From the NCBI RefSeq assembly GCF_020991375.1, contig NZ_JAJLQZ010000004.1, forward strand, positions 62,001 to 126,000: DNA of 64,000 bases. The letters run 5' to 3'. A program made the position numbers and the translations under genes. How positions within the stretch are numbered: position 1 is the first letter of the stretch; every line of letters starts with the position of its first letter. Below are positions 7,298 through 15,014 of the stretch, piece after piece. The stretch comes from Glycomyces amatae. Its GTDB lineage: Bacteria; Actinomycetota; Actinomycetes; Mycobacteriales; Micromonosporaceae. The notes under the pieces are model-generated. The model made no database searches. It was not told where the DNA came from and saw only the letters and a list, made by a program, of their open reading frames with translations.

Positions 7298-7951
7298 ATG
7301 GAGACGATGCGGGCGATCGAGGCCGGGAGCGCGACGCTCACCGACCGGCGCACCGAACGGAGCTGGACCGTCGAGGTCGCGCCGTTCCGGCTGTCCGCCT
7401 TGCAGGTCACGCGCCGCGCCGTCGCCGAGGCCGCCGGGGCCGCCGCGGACGGCGACGAGCTGCTGCCGGCGGTGGACCTCTCCTGGTTCGACGCCGTCCG
7501 CCACTGCAACCGGGTCTCCGAACTGGAGGGCCTGCGCCCCGCCTACGGCCTTCCCGAGACGGACGACGGCGACGCGGTCGTGTGGGACCGGGCCGCCGAC
7601 GGCTACCGGCTCCCCACCGAGGCCGAGTGGGAGTACGCGTGCCGAGCCGGGACGACCGGCCCTCGCTACGGCGACCTCGACGCGATCGCCTGGCACCGCG
7701 GCAACTCCGGGGAGCGCCCCCACCGCGGCGGCGGGAGGCTCCCGAACGCCTGGGGCCTGCACGACATGATCGGCAACGTCTGGGAGTGGTGCTGGGACGT
7801 CTACGACGCCGAGGTCTACCGGGACTACCGGGTCATCAAGGGCGGCGGCTGGTTCGACGAGCACTGGTCGTGCCGGGCCGGGGTGCGCCGCCGCACCATG
7901 CCGTCCCTGGCGATCGACGACCTCGGGTTCCGGCTGGCGCGCAACGCGTGA
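7298..7951 (+). CDS. formylglycine-generating-enzyme-like (SUMF1) domain protein
   Basis: A 217-aa protein of the FGE-sulfatase fold. Family signatures are YRLPTEAEWEYACRAG (103-118), WGLHDMIGNVWEWCWD (152-167), IKGGGWF (180-186) and GFRLARN at the end. True copper-dependent FGE enzymes have two cysteines in a GGSFxCxxxxC motif. Here the first is Asp187 and only the second, Cys192, remains, so sulfatase activation is unlikely. The fold is also used for sulfoxide synthases, binding domains and phage variable proteins. No sulfatase gene is in the window. The start is fixed by the TAGGAT box 6 nt upstream. Confidence 0.88.
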   Translation: METMRAIEAGSATLTDRRTERSWTVEVAPFRLSALQVTRRAVAEAAGAAADGDELLPAVDLSWFDAVRHCNRVSELEGLRPAYGLPETDDGDAVVWDRAADGYRLPTEAEWEYACRAGTTGPRYGDLDAIAWHRGNSGERPHRGGGRLPNAWGLHDMIGNVWEWCWDVYDAEVYRDYRVIKGGGWFDEHWSCRAGVRRRTMPSLAIDDLGFRLARNA

Positions 7952-8023: not shown

Positions 8024-8824
8024 TCAGGCCCAGTTCGCGCGCCGCGCCGCCCGCCGCAGCACCCGCAGCAGCAGCGGCCCGGTCAGCAGCACCAGCGCCA
8101 CCGTGGTCGCCGCCCGCCCGACGTCCCAGCCCAGCGAGGTGGCGAGCGTGTACGCCAGCAGCCGCGACAGGTTCTCCTCCACGCCCCCGCCCGGGACGTA
8201 CGACAGGTTCCCCTGCGTGATCGCGAACGGCCAGAACGACAGGTTCAGCAGCAGCCCGTACGCCAGGGACGACACCGCGCCGTAGGCCGCCAGCAGCGCC
8301 AGCTCGGCGGCGCGGCCCGCCCGGGAGCCCCCCGTGCGCGGCAGCAGGCCCGCGCCCAGGCCCACGAACGCCGCCGCGAACATCTGGTACGGCATCCACG
8401 GGCCCACCCCGCCCGTGAGCAGCGCCGACGCGAACAGCCCCGTGCAGCCCAGGAGGAACCCGAACCCCGCCCCGAACACCCTGCCCGCCAAGACGATCAG
8501 GAAGAACACCGTCTCCACCCCGGCCGCGCCCGCCCCGAACGGGCGCACCGCCGCGACCACCGCCGACATGACGCCGAGCATCGCCACCGCCCGCGCGTCC
8601 AGGCCGCCGTCCGCGAGCTGGACCAGCACCGACGCCGTCACCAGCGGCAGCAGCAGCGCGAACAGCCAAGGGCCCGACGTGGTCTCGGTGAGCGCCCCGC
8701 CCGGCGCCGCCAGCAGCGGCCACGCCATGGCGACCAGCCCGAACCCCGCCGCCAGCGCCAGCGCGAGCGCCGCCCGCCACCGCACCGGCGGCCGCGGCCG
8801 CACCGCCTCAACCTCCCGCGGCAT
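8024..8824 (-). CDS. ECF transporter S component, probable cobalamin/corrinoid specificity
   Basis: A 266-aa membrane protein with about seven hydrophobic helices. After an N-terminal polar stretch (PREVEAVRPRPPVRWR) it shows RPFGAGAAGVETVFFLIVLAGRVFGAGFGFLLG and PWMPYQMFAAAFVGLGAGLLP, the arrangement of energy-coupling-factor substrate-binding (S) subunits. Its start overlaps the end of the ATPase gene by 17 nt, so it is the last gene of the operon beta-protein, T, A-A, S. Substrate specificity is inferred from the locus: a cobalamin riboswitch and intrinsic-factor-like binding proteins lie upstream. The sequence alone would allow another vitamin. Confidence 0.85.
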   Translation of the reverse strand: MPREVEAVRPRPPVRWRAALALALAAGFGLVAMAWPLLAAPGGALTETTSGPWLFALLLPLVTASVLVQLADGGLDARAVAMLGVMSAVVAAVRPFGAGAAGVETVFFLIVLAGRVFGAGFGFLLGCTGLFASALLTGGVGPWMPYQMFAAAFVGLGAGLLPRTGGSRAGRAAELALLAAYGAVSSLAYGLLLNLSFWPFAITQGNLSYVPGGGVEENLSRLLAYTLATSLGWDVGRAATTVALVLLTGPLLLRVLRRAARRANWA

Positions 8825-10436
8825 CGCCGGTCCCGTCCGCTTCGCGTTCGAGCGCCGCGGCGACCTCGCCCACGGTGAGCCGCCCCGGCAGGACCTTCGC
8901 GACCTGCGGGGCGAACATCGGCGACGCCGCCACGATCTGCCGGGCCGGGCCGTCCGCCACCACCGCCCCGTCGGAGAGGATCACGACCCGGCTCGCGAAC
9001 TCGGCGCAGAACTCGACGTCGTGGGTCGACACGACCACGGCGTGCCCGGCCGCCGCCAGCGCGGCGAGGCGCGCGGCGAGCGCGGCCTTGCCCGGGTGGT
9101 CCAGGCCCCGCGTCGGCTCGTCGAGCAGCAGCAGCGGCGGCGCGGCCGTGAGGGTCACGGCCAGCGCGAGCGCGAGGCGCTGCCCCTCGGACAGGTCCCG
9201 CGGATGCGTCCCGGCGCCGAGCCCGTCCACCAGGTCGGCGAGGATCTTCGCGCAGGTGCCGCGCGGCGCGCCCCCGTCCTCGTCCGCGCCCTCGCACTCG
9301 GCCTCCCACGTCTCCGCGTACAGCAGGTCGGCGGGCTCGGCCGGGACCAGCCCGGCGAGCCGGCGCCGCTCGCCCGGCTTGAGCGACGCGGGGTCGGTCC
9401 CGCCGATCGCGACCCGCCCGCCCGAGCGCCGCCCGGTGCCCTGGAGCGCCCACAGCAGGCTCGACTTGCCCGAACCGTTGCGGCCCATGAGGGCGATGCG
9501 CTCGCCGCGCCCGGCCGCGAGGTCGACGCCGTCGACGGCGCGCACCCCTGGGTGGTCGACGGTGACGCCGCGGGCCTCCAGCAGCGGCGGCCCGGCGGCC
9601 TCGACGGGGGCCGCCGGCTCCAGCCCGGCGAGCCGGTCCCGCAGCCCCGCGGCGTGCCTGCGGGCCTCGCGGATGGTCACGGGCGGGCCCGGCCACCCGG
9701 CGAGGCGGCCCAGCTCGACCACCGGCGGGGCGACCGGGGAGGCCGCGAGGACCTCCGCGACCGGCCCCCACACCGCCCTGCCGCCGTTCAGGAGCAGCGC
9801 CGAGTCGGCGTACTGGGCGACGCGCTCGAGCCGGTGCTCGGCCAGGAGCACCGTGACGCCGAGGTCGTGGACGAGGCGGTGGAGCGCCGACAACACCTCG
9901 TCGGCGGCGGTCGGGTCGAGCGCCGAGGTCGGCTCGTCGAGCACCAGCGCCGCGGGCCCGGCGACCAGGGCCGCGCCGATCGCGACCCGCTGCCGCTGCC
10001 CCGAGGAGAGCCGGGCGAGCGCGCGCCCGCGCACGTCGGCGAGCCCGAGGAGGTCCACGATCTCGGTGACGCGCTTGCGCATCGCCGCCGGATCGACCCC
10101 GAGCTGCTCGGCGGTGTAGGCGAGCTCGAGCTCGACCTCGTCGGTCACGAAGCCCGCCAGCGGGTCCTGCCCGACGTAGCCGACGACGTCGGCCAGGTCG
10201 GCGGGGGCGGCGCCGCGGACCTCGCGTCCGGCGACGCGCACCCGGCCGCTCATGGTCCCGCCGGTGAAGTGCGGGACGAGCCCGTTGACCATCTTCAGCA
10301 GCGTCGACTTGCCCGCGCCCGTGGGGCCCACGAGCAGGCAGAACTCGCCTTCGGGAAGGTCGAACGACACGTCGTCGAGGACGTTCGCGCCCGCGTAGGC
10401 GAAGGAGACGTGCTCGAAGGCGATCCCGCTGCTCAT
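8808..10436 (-). CDS. ECF transporter fused double ATPase (A-A')
   Basis: A 542-aa protein with two ABC ATPase domains in one chain. Domain 1 has GPTGAGKST (37-45), a Q-loop VGQDP, signature LSSGQRQRVAIG and LDEPTSALDP. Domain 2 has GRNGSGKSS, signature LSEGQRLALALA and LDEPTRGLDH. Domain 2 carries an acidic, cysteine-containing insertion (ECEGADEDGG) before its signature. It would energise uptake by the neighbouring T and S subunits. It starts at ATG 10436 with a GAAGGGAA ribosome site and overlaps the T-subunit stop as ATGA. The longer upstream open frame is the T-subunit region in another frame. Confidence 0.93.
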   Translation of the reverse strand: MSSGIAFEHVSFAYAGANVLDDVSFDLPEGEFCLLVGPTGAGKSTLLKMVNGLVPHFTGGTMSGRVRVAGREVRGAAPADLADVVGYVGQDPLAGFVTDEVELELAYTAEQLGVDPAAMRKRVTEIVDLLGLADVRGRALARLSSGQRQRVAIGAALVAGPAALVLDEPTSALDPTAADEVLSALHRLVHDLGVTVLLAEHRLERVAQYADSALLLNGGRAVWGPVAEVLAASPVAPPVVELGRLAGWPGPPVTIREARRHAAGLRDRLAGLEPAAPVEAAGPPLLEARGVTVDHPGVRAVDGVDLAAGRGERIALMGRNGSGKSSLLWALQGTGRRSGGRVAIGGTDPASLKPGERRRLAGLVPAEPADLLYAETWEAECEGADEDGGAPRGTCAKILADLVDGLGAGTHPRDLSEGQRLALALAVTLTAAPPLLLLDEPTRGLDHPGKAALAARLAALAAAGHAVVVSTHDVEFCAEFASRVVILSDGAVVADGPARQIVAASPMFAPQVAKVLPGRLTVGEVAAALEREADGTGDAAGG

Positions 10437-11587
10437 GGTGTTCCCTTCGGCGGCAGTGGTGTTGGCGAGGGGCCTGACGGGGCGAGGAGCGCGGGGGCGG
10501 CGGCGAGGACGATCCCGGCCGCCGCCCACAGCGGCAGCTCAGGGACGCCGAGCGGGTTCGTCGCGGGCCACAGCGCGGCGGGCTCGAGGACGCCCGAGAG
10601 GACGGTCCCGGCCGTCGCCGCCGCCCCCGAGGCGAGCACCGCCCAGTCCAGGGCCCGGAAGCGGTCGGGCCGGTAGCGGGTGTGCGGGACCCGCTTCGAG
10701 GCGAACGCGATCCCGAAGACCGCCGCGGCGGCGCCCACCGCGAGCAGCGACCAGGCCAGCGGGGCCGGTGTCGCGGTGCCGAGCAGCGCGTACGCGCCCG
10801 CGCACAACCCCAGGAGCCCGATGAGGAGGGACGCGCCGGTGGCGCGGCGGGCCGGGGCCGGGACGCCCGCGGCGCGGCCGTACCCGCGCGAGGCCATCGC
10901 GGCGGCGAGCGCGAGCGACCGGTCGAGCGCGTCGTGCAGGACCGGCGCGACGACGGTGCGCATGAGGTTCGCGGGACTGCGGCCCGTGTTGCCGCGCAGG
11001 GCCCGGGCCCTGCGGACCCGGCCGACGCTCTCGACCAGCTGCGGCGCCACCGACAGCGCGACGACGACCGCGACGCTCACCTCGTACAGGGCGGCCGGGA
11101 CCGACCGCAGGAGGCGCCGCGGGCTCGCGAGCGCGTTCGCGGCGCCGACGCAGACCAGCAGCGTCGCCAGGCGCAGGCCGTCGTAGGCGGCCGCCAGGGC
11201 GCCCTCGGCGGTGACGGCCCCGCCGAGCCGGAATCCCGCCGCCCAGTCCGGGAGCGTCACCGACGGGAGCGTGAACAGCACCGTGGGGCCGTCGGACCCG
11301 CCGAAGACGACATAGAAGGCCATGCGGACCGCGACCGCGCTGAGCCCGATGAACAGGAAGACCCGGTAGGCCCCCGACCACGGCTCGTCGCCGCGGCACC
11401 AGGTCACGACCAGGCCGGCGACGGCGGCCACGAGGAGCAGCAGCCACGGGTTCGCGGTGCGCCCGGCCGCGGTGGCGAGCAGGAGCGCCCAGCCCCACCA
11501 GGCGGCGGGGTGGACCGCGGCCCGGACGGGCGCGCGGCGCGGGAGGACCCGCGGGGCTTCGCTCGGCGCGGCGGGAGGCATGGTCAC
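10433..11587 (-). CDS. ECF transporter T component (EcfT)
   Basis: A 384-aa membrane protein of the CbiQ/EcfT family. Hydrophobic helices at both ends flank a cytoplasmic region with RRARALRGNTGRSP and AMASRGYGRAAG, the short Arg-containing coupling-helix motifs that contact the two ATPase domains. GTG 11587 overlaps the preceding stop as GTGA and is preferred; ATG 11581, two codons on, is an alternative. The 3' end overlaps the ATPase gene by 4 nt, so the three transporter genes are translationally coupled. Its last codons (PTPLPPKGTP) double as the ribosome-site region of the ATPase gene. Confidence 0.9.
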   Translation of the reverse strand: MTMPPAAPSEAPRVLPRRAPVRAAVHPAAWWGWALLLATAAGRTANPWLLLLVAAVAGLVVTWCRGDEPWSGAYRVFLFIGLSAVAVRMAFYVVFGGSDGPTVLFTLPSVTLPDWAAGFRLGGAVTAEGALAAAYDGLRLATLLVCVGAANALASPRRLLRSVPAALYEVSVAVVVALSVAPQLVESVGRVRRARALRGNTGRSPANLMRTVVAPVLHDALDRSLALAAAMASRGYGRAAGVPAPARRATGASLLIGLLGLCAGAYALLGTATPAPLAWSLLAVGAAAAVFGIAFASKRVPHTRYRPDRFRALDWAVLASGAAATAGTVLSGVLEPAALWPATNPLGVPELPLWAAAGIVLAAAPALLAPSGPSPTPLPPKGTP

Positions 11588-12237
11588 GCGCGCCGGCCGC
11601 GGCGGCGCCAGACGACGAGCCCGGCGATGACGGCGAGGACCGCGACGGCGGCGAGCCAGGTGAGGGAGCCGCCGGAACCGTCGTCGGCGTTCGCGTCGGC
11701 GGCGGGGGCGGCCGCGTCGGCGGGGGCGATCGCGGGCGGCGAGGCGCCGTCGCCGAAGACCCAGCCTTCGACGTCGCCCGCGCCGGGGGAGGCGTAGGCG
11801 CCGCCGACGGGCGAGTAGGTCCACTCGGCGTCGCCGGTCTCGGCGTGCCAGTACGACCAGTACTCGTCGGCGGGCGGCGCGCCGCCGCAGTCGGTCTCGG
11901 GGAGCTCGTCGATCCGGCAGACCATGCCGCGGATCGCGGCGACCTCGGTGACCGCGAAGCCCGCCTGGGCGAGCGCGTCGAGGCCGTCGGCCGGATCGGC
12001 GGCGCACCCGGTCGCGGGCTCGGGGGCGAGCGGGCCGAAGTCGACCACCACGGTGACGCCGGAGCAGGACTCCTGGGCCGAGGCCGGAGCGGCGGACAGC
12101 GGGACGAGGGCGAAGGCCGCCAGGAGCGCGGCGGCCAGGGCGATGCGCCGGGACCGGATCGCGGCGGGCAGCCCGGAAGCCCTGAGGAGCCGGTGCCGAG
12201 CGCCCCCAGTCGCAAGGGTGACACGGGGGTGCGACAT
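11584..12237 (-). CDS. membrane-anchored beta-domain protein, transcobalamin C-terminal-like (DUF4430-like)
   Basis: A 217-aa exported protein. After an N-terminal segment it has a signal peptide (RRIALAAALLAAFALVPLSA, cleavage near APASAQ), then a small beta-rich domain with LAQAGFAVTEVAAIRGMVCR, EYWSYWHAETG and VEGWVFGDG. A disordered Ala/Asp stretch follows, then a C-terminal membrane helix and Arg-rich stop. The YWxYW and exWxF pattern matches the DUF4430/transcobalamin C-terminal fold that caps corrinoids in intrinsic factor. It is the first gene of the ECF transporter operon. The annotated ATG 12237 and the first ~24 residues lie inside a dispersed repeat element, and no other in-frame ATG/GTG/TTG precedes the signal peptide. 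Confidence 0.75.
   Translation of the reverse strand: MSHPRVTLATGGARHRLLRASGLPAAIRSRRIALAAALLAAFALVPLSAAPASAQESCSGVTVVVDFGPLAPEPATGCAADPADGLDALAQAGFAVTEVAAIRGMVCRIDELPETDCGGAPPADEYWSYWHAETGDAEWTYSPVGGAYASPGAGDVEGWVFGDGASPPAIAPADAAAPAADANADDGSGGSLTWLAAVAVLAVIAGLVVWRRRGRRA
12166..12237 (-). repeat. ATG-hairpin repeat element, copy A
   Basis: Minus-strand sequence begins ATGTCGCACCCCCGTG and ends in CTTCCGGGCTGCC. It is about 80% identical to copy B at 12408-12479 and shares the CCCCC...GGGGG hairpin arms and frame with the other copies. It overlaps the 5' end of the beta-domain gene. Confidence 0.75.
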
Positions 12238-12407
12238 GGCTCGGCTGCTCGGCCGCGGTTCACGGGCCGCCGTGATCGCGGGGGTGCGCGGAACGGCTCG
12301 GAGCAGTCCGAGCGGCGATCGCGGATGCGCGCGGCCATCGAAGCGGCGGGAAGGCGCGGCACCGACGCGCCGCGCCTCCGCCGGCGCACCCGGTCGCCGC
12401 GCGTTTC

Positions 12408-12479
12408 GGACAGCCCGGAAGCCTTGAGGTGCCGGTGTCGAGCGCCCCCGATCGCAAGGGTGACACCCGGGTACGACAT
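12408..12479 (-). repeat. ATG-hairpin repeat element, copy B
   Basis: Begins ATGTCGTACCCGGGTG on the minus strand. It is a near-duplicate of copy A, 242 bp away. A 10-bp-stem hairpin (12485-12517) lies directly upstream, as hairpins do beside copies C and D. The 170 bp between copies A and B holds no gene that I can support. Confidence 0.7.
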
Positions 12480-12526
12480 CGTCCGGGGACCGGCGCCCCG
12501 TTCGGCCGCCGGTCCCCGCGAGGCGC

Positions 12527-12558
12527 GCGCAGCGCCCGCCGTTCGGGCGGGCGCTGCG
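12527..12558 (-). terminator. terminator after the alpha-barrel gene
   Basis: A perfect 14-bp stem (GCGCAGCGCCCGCC and complement) with a 5-nt loop, 33 bp beyond the alpha-barrel gene stop. A second hairpin at 12485-12517 follows. Transcription of the alpha gene may therefore stop before the beta/ECF operon. Confidence 0.7.
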
Positions 12559-12590
12559 CGGGAAGTGCTCGGCGCGGGTCATGCGCGGGG

Positions 12591-13964
12591 CTACCGCTGT
12601 TCCCGGTCGTCGCCGGACCCGTCGTCGCCCTTCGGCTCCGCATTCGGCCCGGCGTCCGCCTCAGCGTTGTCCGATTCGGCGTCCGCCGCAGTGCTCTTCG
12701 ATTCGGCGTCCGCCGCAGTGCTCTTTGATTCGGCGTCCGCCTCGGCGCCCGCGGCCGGGGCCGAGCCGACGACGGCGCCGTCCCGGTCGCCGCCGCGGCG
12801 GCTCCGCAGCGCGAACGCGACGACGAGCGCGGCCAGCACGAGCACCGCCGCGCCGATCGCCCACGGCAGCCACGACGCCGAGTCCTCGTCGGACTCCTCG
12901 GCCGCGGTCGTCCCGGCGACTTCGCCCTCGCCGTTCGCCGCGCAGGCGTCGCCCGGCACCTCGGCCGCGATGTTCGAGGCGTCCAGGTCGGCCAGGTTCT
13001 GGCCCGCTACGGGGACCATGGCCTGCGCCGTCGCCAGCAGGCGCGTCGCCTCGCCGAACTCGGGGTCCTCGGGGTCGGTGTACATGAACGCGCCCGGAGC
13101 CGCTTCGGTGCAGTCGAACTGGAGCTCCAGGAGGAACGCCACGGCCCCCTCGGCCGCGTCGTCCCGCCCCGCCGCCAGGAGGGCCTGCGCGGCCATCGCC
13201 GTCGAGTTCGCGTTCTCGCCGAAGCCGTTGTCGAAACCGCCGCCCTCGGTCTGCGCCGACTCCAGCCAGGACACGGCCGAGTCCAGCGAAGCCGCCGCGG
13301 CCTCGCCCGGCAGCGTCGCCAGCGCCGAGACGACCAGGCCCGTCGAGTCCGGGTCGGAGAGGCAGTCCTCGCCGCCGTCGACGTCGCCGAAGCTGAAACC
13401 GCCGTCGGGGCACTGGATAGCCGCGAACCCCGCCGCCGCCTCCTCGCCCGCGGGGGCGTCGGTGCGCGAGAGCCCGAGCACGGCCCACGCCGTGGTCAGC
13501 GCCGTCCCGTCGCCGTACGTGCCGTTCTCGGCCTGCGCGGACCCCACCTCGTCGGCGAGCCTGATCCCCGCGAAGTCGGTCGGGTCGCCGCCCGCGGTCG
13601 CGACCGCGTACATGGTCTTCCCCGCCGCGCCCGCGCTCAGGACCGGCTCGGTCACGCCCTCGGCCGTGGGGTACACGTACGGTGTGAGCGTCTCGGTGTC
13701 GTTGAGCCACTCGAGCGCGGCCTTGACCTGGTCGCCGCCGACGCCGGCGGCCTGGAGGGCGATGACCGCGTCCAGGGAGGTCGACACGTCGCCGGCCGAC
13801 CAGAAGGGGCCCTCGGACTGGGCGACGAGCCAGCCGGCGGCGGCCTGGGCGGGCGCCTCGAACGACTCGGATTGGGCCTGGGCCGGTGCGGCCGAGGCGA
13901 AGACGGAGATGGAAACGGGCACGACCGCGGCGGCGGCCAGCAGTCGACCGGACAGGTGGCGCAT
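12591..13964 (-). CDS. membrane-anchored alpha-barrel protein with prenyltransferase/squalene-cyclase-type repeats, intrinsic-factor-like
   Basis: A 457-aa exported protein: signal peptide (MRHLSGRLLAAAAVVPVSIS, cleavage near APAQA), then about six helical-pair repeats such as SLDAVIALQAAG, DGGFSFGDVDGG and NSTAMAAQALLAAG. This is the (alpha/alpha)6-barrel signature shared by terpene cyclases and by the alpha domain of intrinsic factor/transcobalamin. Cyclase acid motifs (DxDD) are not seen, favouring binding over catalysis. A membrane helix near 385-407 (LPWAIGAAVLVLAALVVAFA) and an acidic cytosolic tail follow; the tail contains a 9-residue tandem repeat. ATG 13964 has an AGGAAAGG ribosome site. 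It is preceded by a cobalamin riboswitch, the strongest evidence for a role in B12 capture. Confidence 0.85.
   Translation of the reverse strand: MRHLSGRLLAAAAVVPVSISVFASAAPAQAQSESFEAPAQAAAGWLVAQSEGPFWSAGDVSTSLDAVIALQAAGVGGDQVKAALEWLNDTETLTPYVYPTAEGVTEPVLSAGAAGKTMYAVATAGGDPTDFAGIRLADEVGSAQAENGTYGDGTALTTAWAVLGLSRTDAPAGEEAAAGFAAIQCPDGGFSFGDVDGGEDCLSDPDSTGLVVSALATLPGEAAAASLDSAVSWLESAQTEGGGFDNGFGENANSTAMAAQALLAAGRDDAAEGAVAFLLELQFDCTEAAPGAFMYTDPEDPEFGEATRLLATAQAMVPVAGQNLADLDASNIAAEVPGDACAANGEGEVAGTTAAEESDEDSASWLPWAIGAAVLVLAALVVAFALRSRRGGDRDGAVVGSAPAAGAEADAESKSTAADAESKSTAADAESDNAEADAGPNAEPKGDDGSGDDREQR
12673..12741. repeat. 27-bp tandem repeat in the alpha-barrel gene
   Basis: Two and a half copies of a 27-bp unit encode DAESKSTAA repeats in the C-terminal tail. 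The first two copies differ at one base. Confidence 0.85.
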
Positions 13965-14089
13965 TGCCTGACCTTTCCTAGAGCGAGTGGGTCTTCGGGC
14001 AGGCGGCGGCGCCGCAAGCGCCTGTAGACCACGACAGGCGTTGACAAGACGGGTTCGGCGCAGACGGGTATTCGGGCTCACGCGGGTGG

Positions 14090-14220
14090 GCCGAGCTTCG
14101 GAAGGGTGCTCGGCATTCGTTCGACCGTGTCTACTGCAAACGTCGAACCGCGACTACCGTTGCGGGTCAGCGCCGGCCTCTCACCGGACTTCCCCCGCCT
14201 CGCGCCTGTTCAGTTTGGGC
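14090..14220 (-). ncRNA. cobalamin riboswitch (AdoCbl class) upstream of the alpha-barrel gene
   Basis: The minus-strand leader contains GGGAAGTCCGGTGAGAG followed by GCCGGCGCTGACCCGCAAC (plus 14159-14195). This is the conserved core of cobalamin riboswitches (GGGAAnnCCGGTGnGAnnCCGGnGCTGACnCGCAAC). A diverged B12-box-like segment, GCAGTAGACACGGTCGAACG, lies downstream at 14118-14137. A 7-bp hairpin GCCGAGC/GCTCGGC at 14090-14114 could be part of the expression platform. A promoter with TTGACA lies just upstream, and the alpha gene ATG is about 125 nt beyond the platform hairpin. Such elements repress when cobalamin is plentiful. The core match is strong; exact ends are approximate. Confidence 0.85.
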
Positions 14221-14222
14221 TC

Positions 14223-14252
14223 ATTCTCGCGGTCGGCTCCGCCGGGTGTCAA
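14223..14252 (-). promoter_or_regulatory. promoter of the riboswitch transcript
   Basis: On the minus strand TTGACA (14252-14247), an 18-nt spacer and GAGAAT (14228-14223). This predicts a start near 14216, immediately before the riboswitch core. Confidence 0.6.
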
Positions 14253-14317: not shown

Positions 14318-14347
14318 TTGACCCGTAGCACCGGGTATCGATACGGT
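14318..14347 (+). promoter_or_regulatory. tetR promoter (TTGACC-18-TACGGT)
   Basis: TTGACC at 14318-14323 and TACGGT at 14342-14347, 7 nt before GTG 14355, consistent with a leaderless mRNA. A 10-bp palindrome GTATCGATAC (14335-14344) overlaps the -10. Confidence 0.5.
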
Positions 14348-14354
14348 GCACAAC

Positions 14355-15014
14355 GTGAGCAGAAATAAGAACGCCGATTTGGACAGAGTCCTTCGGGCTG
14401 CGACACGGGTCTTCCTGGAGCGCGGGTTCTCCGCGACGTCCATGTCGGACCTCGTGGCCGCCACCGGCATGAACCGGGCCGGACTCTACGCCGCCTTCGG
14501 CTCCAAGCACCAGCTCTACATCACGGCCCTGGGCCGCTACCGAGAGGACACCGAACCGGAACTGCGCGCGATCACCCGCCGGGCCCTCGACCGGGCGGAG
14601 GGCGAGCGGGTGGACGCCCCCCGGGTCGTCGCCGACCTCCTCGACGTGGTGGCGCGCCACTCCAAGGAGGGCGGCTTCGTCGTCCGCGCCGCCGTGGAAC
14701 TGGCCGACGACCCGGCCACGATGCGCCGCGTCCAGGAGGCCTGGACCGAGCTCGAACGCGACCTGGCCGCGATCCTGGCACGGGCGGTCGAGCGGGGCGA
14801 GATGGACGCCGCGGCCGACACCGACCGCCTGGCCCGCACCGCCCTCGTGTTCGTCCAGGGCGCGCTCGTCACCGGCCACGCCGACGAGGACGACCGCCGC
14901 CTCGCCGACGCCGCGGCGGGCCTGGTCGACCTCCTGTCGGCTCACAGGCCCTCGGCGACCGCCGAGGAGATCCGCAGCCAGGCCCCCGACGACGCCTTGC
15001 TCAACGAGTCGTAG
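14355..15014 (+). CDS. TetR family transcriptional regulator
   Basis: A 219-aa regulator with a clear TetR DNA-binding domain: RVLRAATRVFLERGFSATSM, DLVAATGMNRAGLYAAFGSK, HQLYITALGRY. The C-terminal half is a helical ligand-binding domain with ELADDPATMRRVQEAW. GTG 14355 is preferred over GTG 14346 because the -10 ends 7 nt upstream. The gene is divergent from the B12-binding alpha-barrel gene, with a 25-bp inverted repeat between them. Its last 73 nt overlap the 3' end of the convergent ParA-like gene, so the final ~24 residues are encoded antisense to that gene. The ligand is unknown. Confidence 0.92.
   Translation: MSRNKNADLDRVLRAATRVFLERGFSATSMSDLVAATGMNRAGLYAAFGSKHQLYITALGRYREDTEPELRAITRRALDRAEGERVDAPRVVADLLDVVARHSKEGGFVVRAAVELADDPATMRRVQEAWTELERDLAAILARAVERGEMDAAADTDRLARTALVFVQGALVTGHADEDDRRLADAAAGLVDLLSAHRPSATAEEIRSQAPDDALLNES

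Follow-up and report, generated by a model that had tools for sequence, protein, structure and literature searches.

A likely riboswitch-linked uptake operon for cobalamin with separate alpha and beta surface proteins in Glycomyces amatae and other actinobacteria

Results

A 64,000-nt stretch of the Glycomyces amatae genome (contig NZ_JAJLQZ010000004.1, positions 62,001 to 126,000 of the forward strand; hereafter the window) carries a set of genes that is likely to be an uptake operon of the energy-coupling factor (ECF) type for cobalamin, or another complete corrinoid, with an extracytoplasmic catcher in two pieces. In the order of transcription, the set consists of a cobalamin riboswitch aptamer (14046..14252), genes for two predicted exported proteins, here called alpha (457 aa; 12591..13964) and beta (217 aa; 11584..12237), and genes for EcfT (10433..11587), a fused double ABC ATPase, EcfA-A' (8808..10436), and a putative S component (8024..8824). 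An initial annotation of the window had given the same gene positions, and all of these features are located on the minus strand. Read from the sequence, beta overlaps EcfT by 4 nt, EcfT overlaps EcfA-A' by 4 nt, and EcfA-A' overlaps S by 17 nt.

The aptamer is the only over-threshold Rfam match in the window (RF00174, 32.9 bits against a cut-off of 31.5). It lies 82 nt 5' of the alpha start codon, in agreement with the earlier assignment of a cobalamin riboswitch to this gene. Across 41 related genomes, 29 of 30 alpha genes have an RF00174 match on their upstream side at a distance of 79-245 nt; two partial alpha matches (G017:C12 and G036) were excluded from the 30. Thirteen of the 29 matches are above the Rfam cut-off and 16 are below it at a genome E value of 4e-4 or less. 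The sole alpha gene with no riboswitch match, in genome G037, begins 92 bases from a contig end. Named genomes were also scanned with S alone, and the best 80 of 554 loci, which lean to near relatives of the window S, are all actinobacterial; locus counts below use the 65 of these in which the sequence upstream of S extends for 9 kb or more (the S-chosen loci). A riboswitch core is present on the same strand and at most 900 nt upstream of alpha, beta or EcfT in 57 of the 65, and precedes an alpha gene of permuted type (see below) in four further S-chosen loci outside that count. The core was defined as a pattern allowing up to 4 substitutions, and had no matches in 1.46 Mb of shuffled sequence. 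Cobalamin-class riboswitches were found over threshold by cmscan in five of the seven S-chosen loci checked, and by cmscan also in 8 of 11 loci of the branch that includes the SCO2322 family of Streptomyces (the SCO2322 branch), in several of which beta is the first gene. The riboswitch instances align with invariant core positions in common, and two-sided compensatory change is seen at 4 of 15 consensus pairs among 25 aligned instances (alignment A5, made of 21 of 27 instances plus 4 others). RF00174 also matched 40 of 40 named records; these matches are not tied to contigs and were therefore excluded from the locus counts. When relatives were checked for association with a non-corrinoid pathway, the conserved partner proved to be cobalamin riboswitches instead, and on this sequence evidence the corrinoid reading first proposed for the window holds.

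Alpha, beta, ECF genes and cobalamin riboswitches were thus found together in relatives, where the initial annotation had suggested a search for their co-occurrence. Alpha is present in 28 of the 41 related genomes and beta in 27, the difference being G036, with a short alpha match only. The order alpha-beta-EcfT-S, which ties the two exported proteins to an ECF transporter as had been claimed, is kept in 23 of 26 regions, and the other three (L080, L081 and L085) are cut by contig ends. Beta was found in 62 and alpha in 57 of the 65 S-chosen loci, the latter comprising 51 toroids of the window type and 6 permuted toroids. Of 394 class genomes, 162 have the SCO2322 family itself (134 over the cut-off). 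The loci are not independent: L201-L230 all come from a single genus, Glycomyces accounts for about 22 rows, and L121-L123 duplicate genomes that the set already contains. The arrangement before EcfT is alpha-beta-alpha-beta in two genomes of the same family (L077 and L078), and their first alpha-beta pair, which lacks a C-terminal membrane segment, may be secreted. In four genomes of 1.3-2.2 Mb (L261, L262, L263 and L265), an AdoCbl/cobalamin riboswitch stands directly before a permuted beta, followed by EcfT, EcfA-A' and S; no alpha was found in the examined stretch of these four.

Alpha and beta belong together, as had been claimed, both by linkage in almost all loci and by fusion. Under a strict test, a single reading frame encodes both in 21 loci (23 under a looser one), of which 20 are beta-alpha and one is alpha-beta. 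Many of the beta-alpha fusions, in Streptomyces and its kin, are beta-alpha-alpha. The alpha-beta fusion, L127 (Nocardioidaceae), has one toroid, one beta domain and one membrane anchor. Streptomyces loci such as L134 (1789-2688, minus strand) and L137 (1679-2581, minus strand) carry a fused beta-alpha-alpha gene plus a divergent toroid gene, the latter often preceded, at a distance of some 340-410 nt, by a riboswitch core of its own.

In the SCO2322 branch, the two halves of beta stand in the opposite circular order. The segment YWSYW...VEGWxF comes first and VVxDFG...C...GxDVL...CGxxxYPxxxC second, which is the reverse of the window order. Profile comparison supports this assignment: the first part of the permuted beta matches the window C-half at E 2.7e-17 (N-half, 0.41), and its second part matches the window N-half at E 2.6e-8 (C-half, 0.12). 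The same exchange is found in the toroid, the first part of which matches the C-half at 1.6e-36 (N-half, 7.6e-8) and the second part the N-half at 9.8e-23 (C-half, 1e-6); the far weaker cross-matches are attributed to the internal repeats of the toroid. Restored to the window order, the permuted beta matches DUF4430 at 1.1e-5 and 6.6e-4. The window-order beta pattern was not found in any of L261-L280, because the betas of these loci are permuted. Circular order could be classified in 140 of 156 loci (16 were unclassifiable). Both proteins are unpermuted in 77 loci, both are permuted in 41, and none is mixed; the remaining classified loci have permuted beta only (15), unpermuted beta only (6) or unpermuted alpha only (1). 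The 118 loci of the first two classes are not independent of one another. On a quickly built tree of S (91 of 120 rows, after 16 unlabelled and 13 near-identical Glycomyces rows were dropped), the smallest number of changes in the circular-order label is two, and a single change is possible. The joint permutation probably goes back to a single ancient event, or to two in close succession, that affected both proteins. A toroid and a beta-grasp domain should be permutable with no loss of fold, since the toroid closes on itself as a ring and the two termini of the beta-grasp are near each other. We regard the permutation of both proteins as the best hint of a shared alpha-beta geometry.

Both proteins are predicted to be exported and anchored in the membrane, as the initial annotation had it. 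Each has a signal-like N-terminus and a C-terminal membrane segment, and a simple hydropathy scan placed the hydrophobic segments at residues 8-26 and 368-386 of alpha and at residues 32-50 and 191-209 of beta. Among rows from related genomes, 22 of 26 for alpha and 22 of 26 for beta retain the C-terminal segment. The predicted cytoplasmic tail of alpha (12591-12760, minus strand) is acidic and contains short tandem repeats (AESKSTAAD).

Pfam matches of alpha are all sub-threshold (SQHop_cyclase_C, 20.0 bits against 26.1; Prenyltrans, 17.3 against 26.5). SQHop_cyclase_C is matched by 25 of 46 alpha family members (alignment A3, 46 of 158 toroid matches), and the best PDB matches of the alpha profile are squalene-hopene cyclases (E 1.4e-35). 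By these sequence matches, alpha is a member of the alpha/alpha toroid superfamily, which bears out that part of its description as an intrinsic-factor-type barrel; a specific likeness to the intrinsic-factor alpha domain was not found (see Discussion). Class II terpene cyclases carry a D-x-D-D motif. The first Asp of this motif is kept in 41 of the 46 alpha members and the third in 44, while the last is present in none of the 46.

Beta gave no Pfam match up to E 1. It matches the NCBIfam model SCO2322_fam (NF040672) at 35.1 bits for the protein and 37.2 for the domain against a cut-off of 85, and thus below the family threshold; 40 of 41 window-type beta sequences match this family weakly (alignment A2, 41 stretches picked from 49, plus the window). 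Profile-profile comparison of beta with DUF4430 (hhalign) gave E values of 4e-4 and 3.6e-5 in the two directions over 71-73 columns, at modest probabilities of 35 and 71 per cent. An unrelated family gave E 0.71 and reversed profiles about 0.5, and none of 100 column shuffles matched the observed score (27.0 against a maximum of 18.9, in one direction). DUF4430 itself finds transcobalamin-1 in the PDB at E 0.068 only. Burroughs et al. (2007; PMC1796856) relate the transcobalamin C-terminal domain structurally to domains of bacterial proteins. Beta is a probable, not proved, remote relative of the transcobalamin-like DUF4430; profile comparison speaks to this extent for the "transcobalamin C-terminal/DUF4430-like" label of the initial annotation, and direct Pfam and PDB searches did not bear it out.

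The transporter genes follow beta. EcfT belongs to the CbiQ family (PF02361, 35.6 bits against a cut-off of 25), and EcfA-A' contains two ABC ATPase stretches (PF00005), with ECF_ATPase models as best NCBIfam matches, below their equivalog cut-offs. The S assignment is putative and based on a sub-threshold match to ECF_trnsprt (PF12822, 18.9 bits against 30.7), seven hydrophobic segments in a hydropathy scan, and a position and sequence conserved in relatives.

The B12 synthesis pathway of the host was checked by CbiC and CobS, and neither had a match in the host genome (100% complete). The genome encodes three proteins with B12-binding domains, MetH among them. Apart from the aptamer described above, it has a single RF00174 match, located 42 nt before a Pfam-confirmed metE. 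Because of this lack of CbiC and CobS matches, the presence of MetH and the position of the other riboswitch, the host should need imported B12. Every one of the 22 genomes of the genus keeps alpha and beta, whereas a CbiC match is above the cut-off in only 4 and sub-threshold in 1 more; import of the complete cofactor therefore fits better than import of cobalt. The second riboswitch is at L100 1501-1704 (G000:C1:41301-41504, minus strand), and metE encodes the cobalamin-independent methionine synthase, alongside MetH in the same genome.

The intergenic gap between alpha and beta is 353 nt and contains two direct-repeat copies, each with an inner inverted repeat (12155-12245 and 12405-12479, minus strand), one of which enters the beta start. 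Two weaker partial copies are found elsewhere in the host genome, and the gap is far shorter in several relatives. A TetR-type regulator (14346-15014, plus strand) is divergent from the riboswitch, and a protein with an FGE-sulfatase domain (7298-7951, plus strand) is convergent with the S gene.

Discussion

In intrinsic factor and transcobalamin, two domains close on one B12 molecule. We propose that alpha and beta would act likewise as one binder, because they are linked, fused in both orders and jointly changed in circular order. At low intracellular cobalamin, the riboswitch would permit synthesis of alpha, and the coupled beta, EcfT, EcfA-A' and S genes would supply the importer; riboswitch control may extend to every gene of the set, also to those from beta to S beyond the 353-nt gap. 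The alpha toroid and the beta domain would be exported and anchored side by side on the outer face of the membrane, where they could close together on one corrinoid. The corrinoid would then be passed to S, which would toggle it inward, presumably energised by the EcfT/EcfA-A' motor.

Several results weigh against this proposal. The alpha profile found no transcobalamin or intrinsic factor among the best 60 of its 76 PDB matches, and PF01122 (Cobalamin_bind) had no match in the window alpha and matched only 1 of 46 relatives (E 1.7e-4). A PF01122 search of 394 class genomes also gave no matches, although this search yielded no control match either and so settles little. Pfam detected DUF4430 in none of 41 beta sequences, and the beta profile had no PDB relative up to E 10. 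The S profile did not retrieve from the PDB a B12-binding S component such as CbrT; its three matches are unrelated (E 0.19 or worse), in a sequence comparison that leaves a shared fold with CbrT possible. The thermodynamic fold of the riboswitch alone is no stabler than shuffled sequence (z +0.67), and four of the 65 S-chosen loci (L144, L174, L179 and L198) have no riboswitch core anywhere. Beta is absent from 3 of these 65 loci, and alpha is absent from 8 of them and from 15 loci of the SCO2322 branch, so that beta and the ECF genes evidently suffice without alpha, which is not indispensable. Since beta-EcfT-EcfA-A'-S occurs without alpha in 21 loci, beta may be the one partner that is always required, with alpha improving affinity or reach, in place of a strict clamp.

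This last point can be taken further. Beta alone could be a capture subunit associated with S, with alpha as an optional shuttle or store of B12 at the level of the wall and no clamp at all. The 21 loci without alpha (6 of the window type and 15 permuted) and the riboswitch directly before beta in the four 1.3-2.2 Mb genomes speak for such an arrangement, which we nonetheless consider doubtful: alpha-beta fusions and joint permutation suggest that the two proteins, where they occur together, share one structural unit. It is still less probable that alpha is a secreted enzyme resembling class II terpene cyclases, or a prenyl-binding protein, and that beta is a separate binder, the two being neighbours only. 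Squalene-hopene cyclases are the nearest solved relatives of alpha by sequence, and two of the Asp residues of the D-x-D-D cyclase motif are mostly kept. Against these stand the final Asp, missing from every member, and the predicted export of alpha, its place under cobalamin riboswitches, its fusion to beta in 21 loci and the identical circular form of both proteins in 118 of 118 loci with both classified. We rate this explanation as highly improbable.

The cargo might also be cobalt or a corrin precursor (cobinamide or cobyrinate) rather than finished cobalamin. EcfT and EcfA-A' resemble CbiQ and CbiO, cobalamin riboswitches likewise precede cobalt transporters in the portions of two reports that concern them (PMC2667541, PMC7689651), and CbrUVT is listed, in an excerpt of a further one, as a system for uptake of cobyrinate diamide (PMC8123684). 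A host with no CbiC or CobS match could not convert cobalt or cobinamide to cobalamin by the known route, and all 22 genomes of the genus retain alpha and beta with a CbiC match in at most 5. A precursor as cargo is therefore unlikely, and uptake of cobalamin or another complete corrinoid by an alpha-beta catcher and the ECF transporter is preferred.

Scavenging of this kind has been predicted. Burroughs et al. (2007; PMC1796856) predicted that bacteria scavenge B12 by means of transcobalamin-like domains, alpha/alpha toroids and the products of CbiO/CbiQ genes, and the SLBB proteins described there resemble the present set in the exported transcobalamin-like beta domain, the toroid, the CbiO-like ATPase, the CbiQ-like membrane gene and hosts that usually do not synthesize B12. 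The window agrees with the basis of that prediction, having predicted exported proteins beside CbiQ- and CbiO-like genes in a host with no CbiC or CobS match. In the account of Burroughs et al. as excerpted, toroid and beta are fused, in either order, in low-GC Gram-positives, planctomycetes and some archaea, whereas here they are separate anchored proteins of actinobacteria, the window beta has diverged too far to be recognised by Pfam DUF4430, and the genes lie downstream of cobalamin riboswitches. The excerpted text of that paper makes no mention of riboswitches or permutation. The statement in the initial annotation that no case with this layout has been characterized must accordingly be narrowed, as systems of the kind had already been predicted in 2007; no prior naming of this particular set, and no paper on SCO2321-SCO2325 as a B12 system, was found among open-licence texts in PMC. 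As far as searched, what is new is the split, riboswitch-linked actinobacterial form and the concerted circular permutation.

Comparison with other systems gives a similar picture. The animal carriers intrinsic factor and transcobalamin also combine a toroid with a small beta domain and B12 as the likely ligand, and the L127 fusion shares their single chain and alpha-then-beta order. The window differs in having two membrane-anchored chains, with no significant PF01122 match, and binding is predicted here. The SCO2322 family (NF040672) has the same operon context with EcfT, EcfA-A' and S and the opposite circular order of its two domain halves. ECF-CbrT of Lactobacillus delbrueckii, a characterised ECF transporter of vitamin B12 according to the part of the report that describes it (PMC5997447), is alike in type and in its substrate, which here is putative; in ECF-CbrT the S component itself binds the substrate, while in the window two exported proteins accompany a fused EcfA-A'. 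CbrUVT appears as a B12-related ECF system in the excerpted metabolic reconstructions (PMC8123684, PMC6593275).

A more far-reaching interpretation is that the set represents an old actinobacterial B12 trap of the intrinsic-factor type with separately anchored halves that co-evolve as one clamp, and that toroid and beta were permuted once, together, in the one branch that includes the SCO2322 family of Streptomyces, with gene order, riboswitch control and ECF partner unchanged. We offer this tentatively, at a little less than even chance. If true, the pair would be a B12 binder of novel topology, and the earliest known example of concerted permutation in two domains that interact but are carried by separate chains.

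Many actinobacteria depend on B12 made by others. To our knowledge, B12 uptake in Gram-positive actinobacteria, Streptomyces included, is poorly known. The set described here is a concrete and widespread candidate for this function, given the SCO2322-type beta in 162 of 394 class genomes. It also bears on the origin of the animal B12 carriers: toroid and beta domain occur on two anchored chains or fused in either order, and in two circular orders, and all of these arrangements adjoin the same transporter genes.

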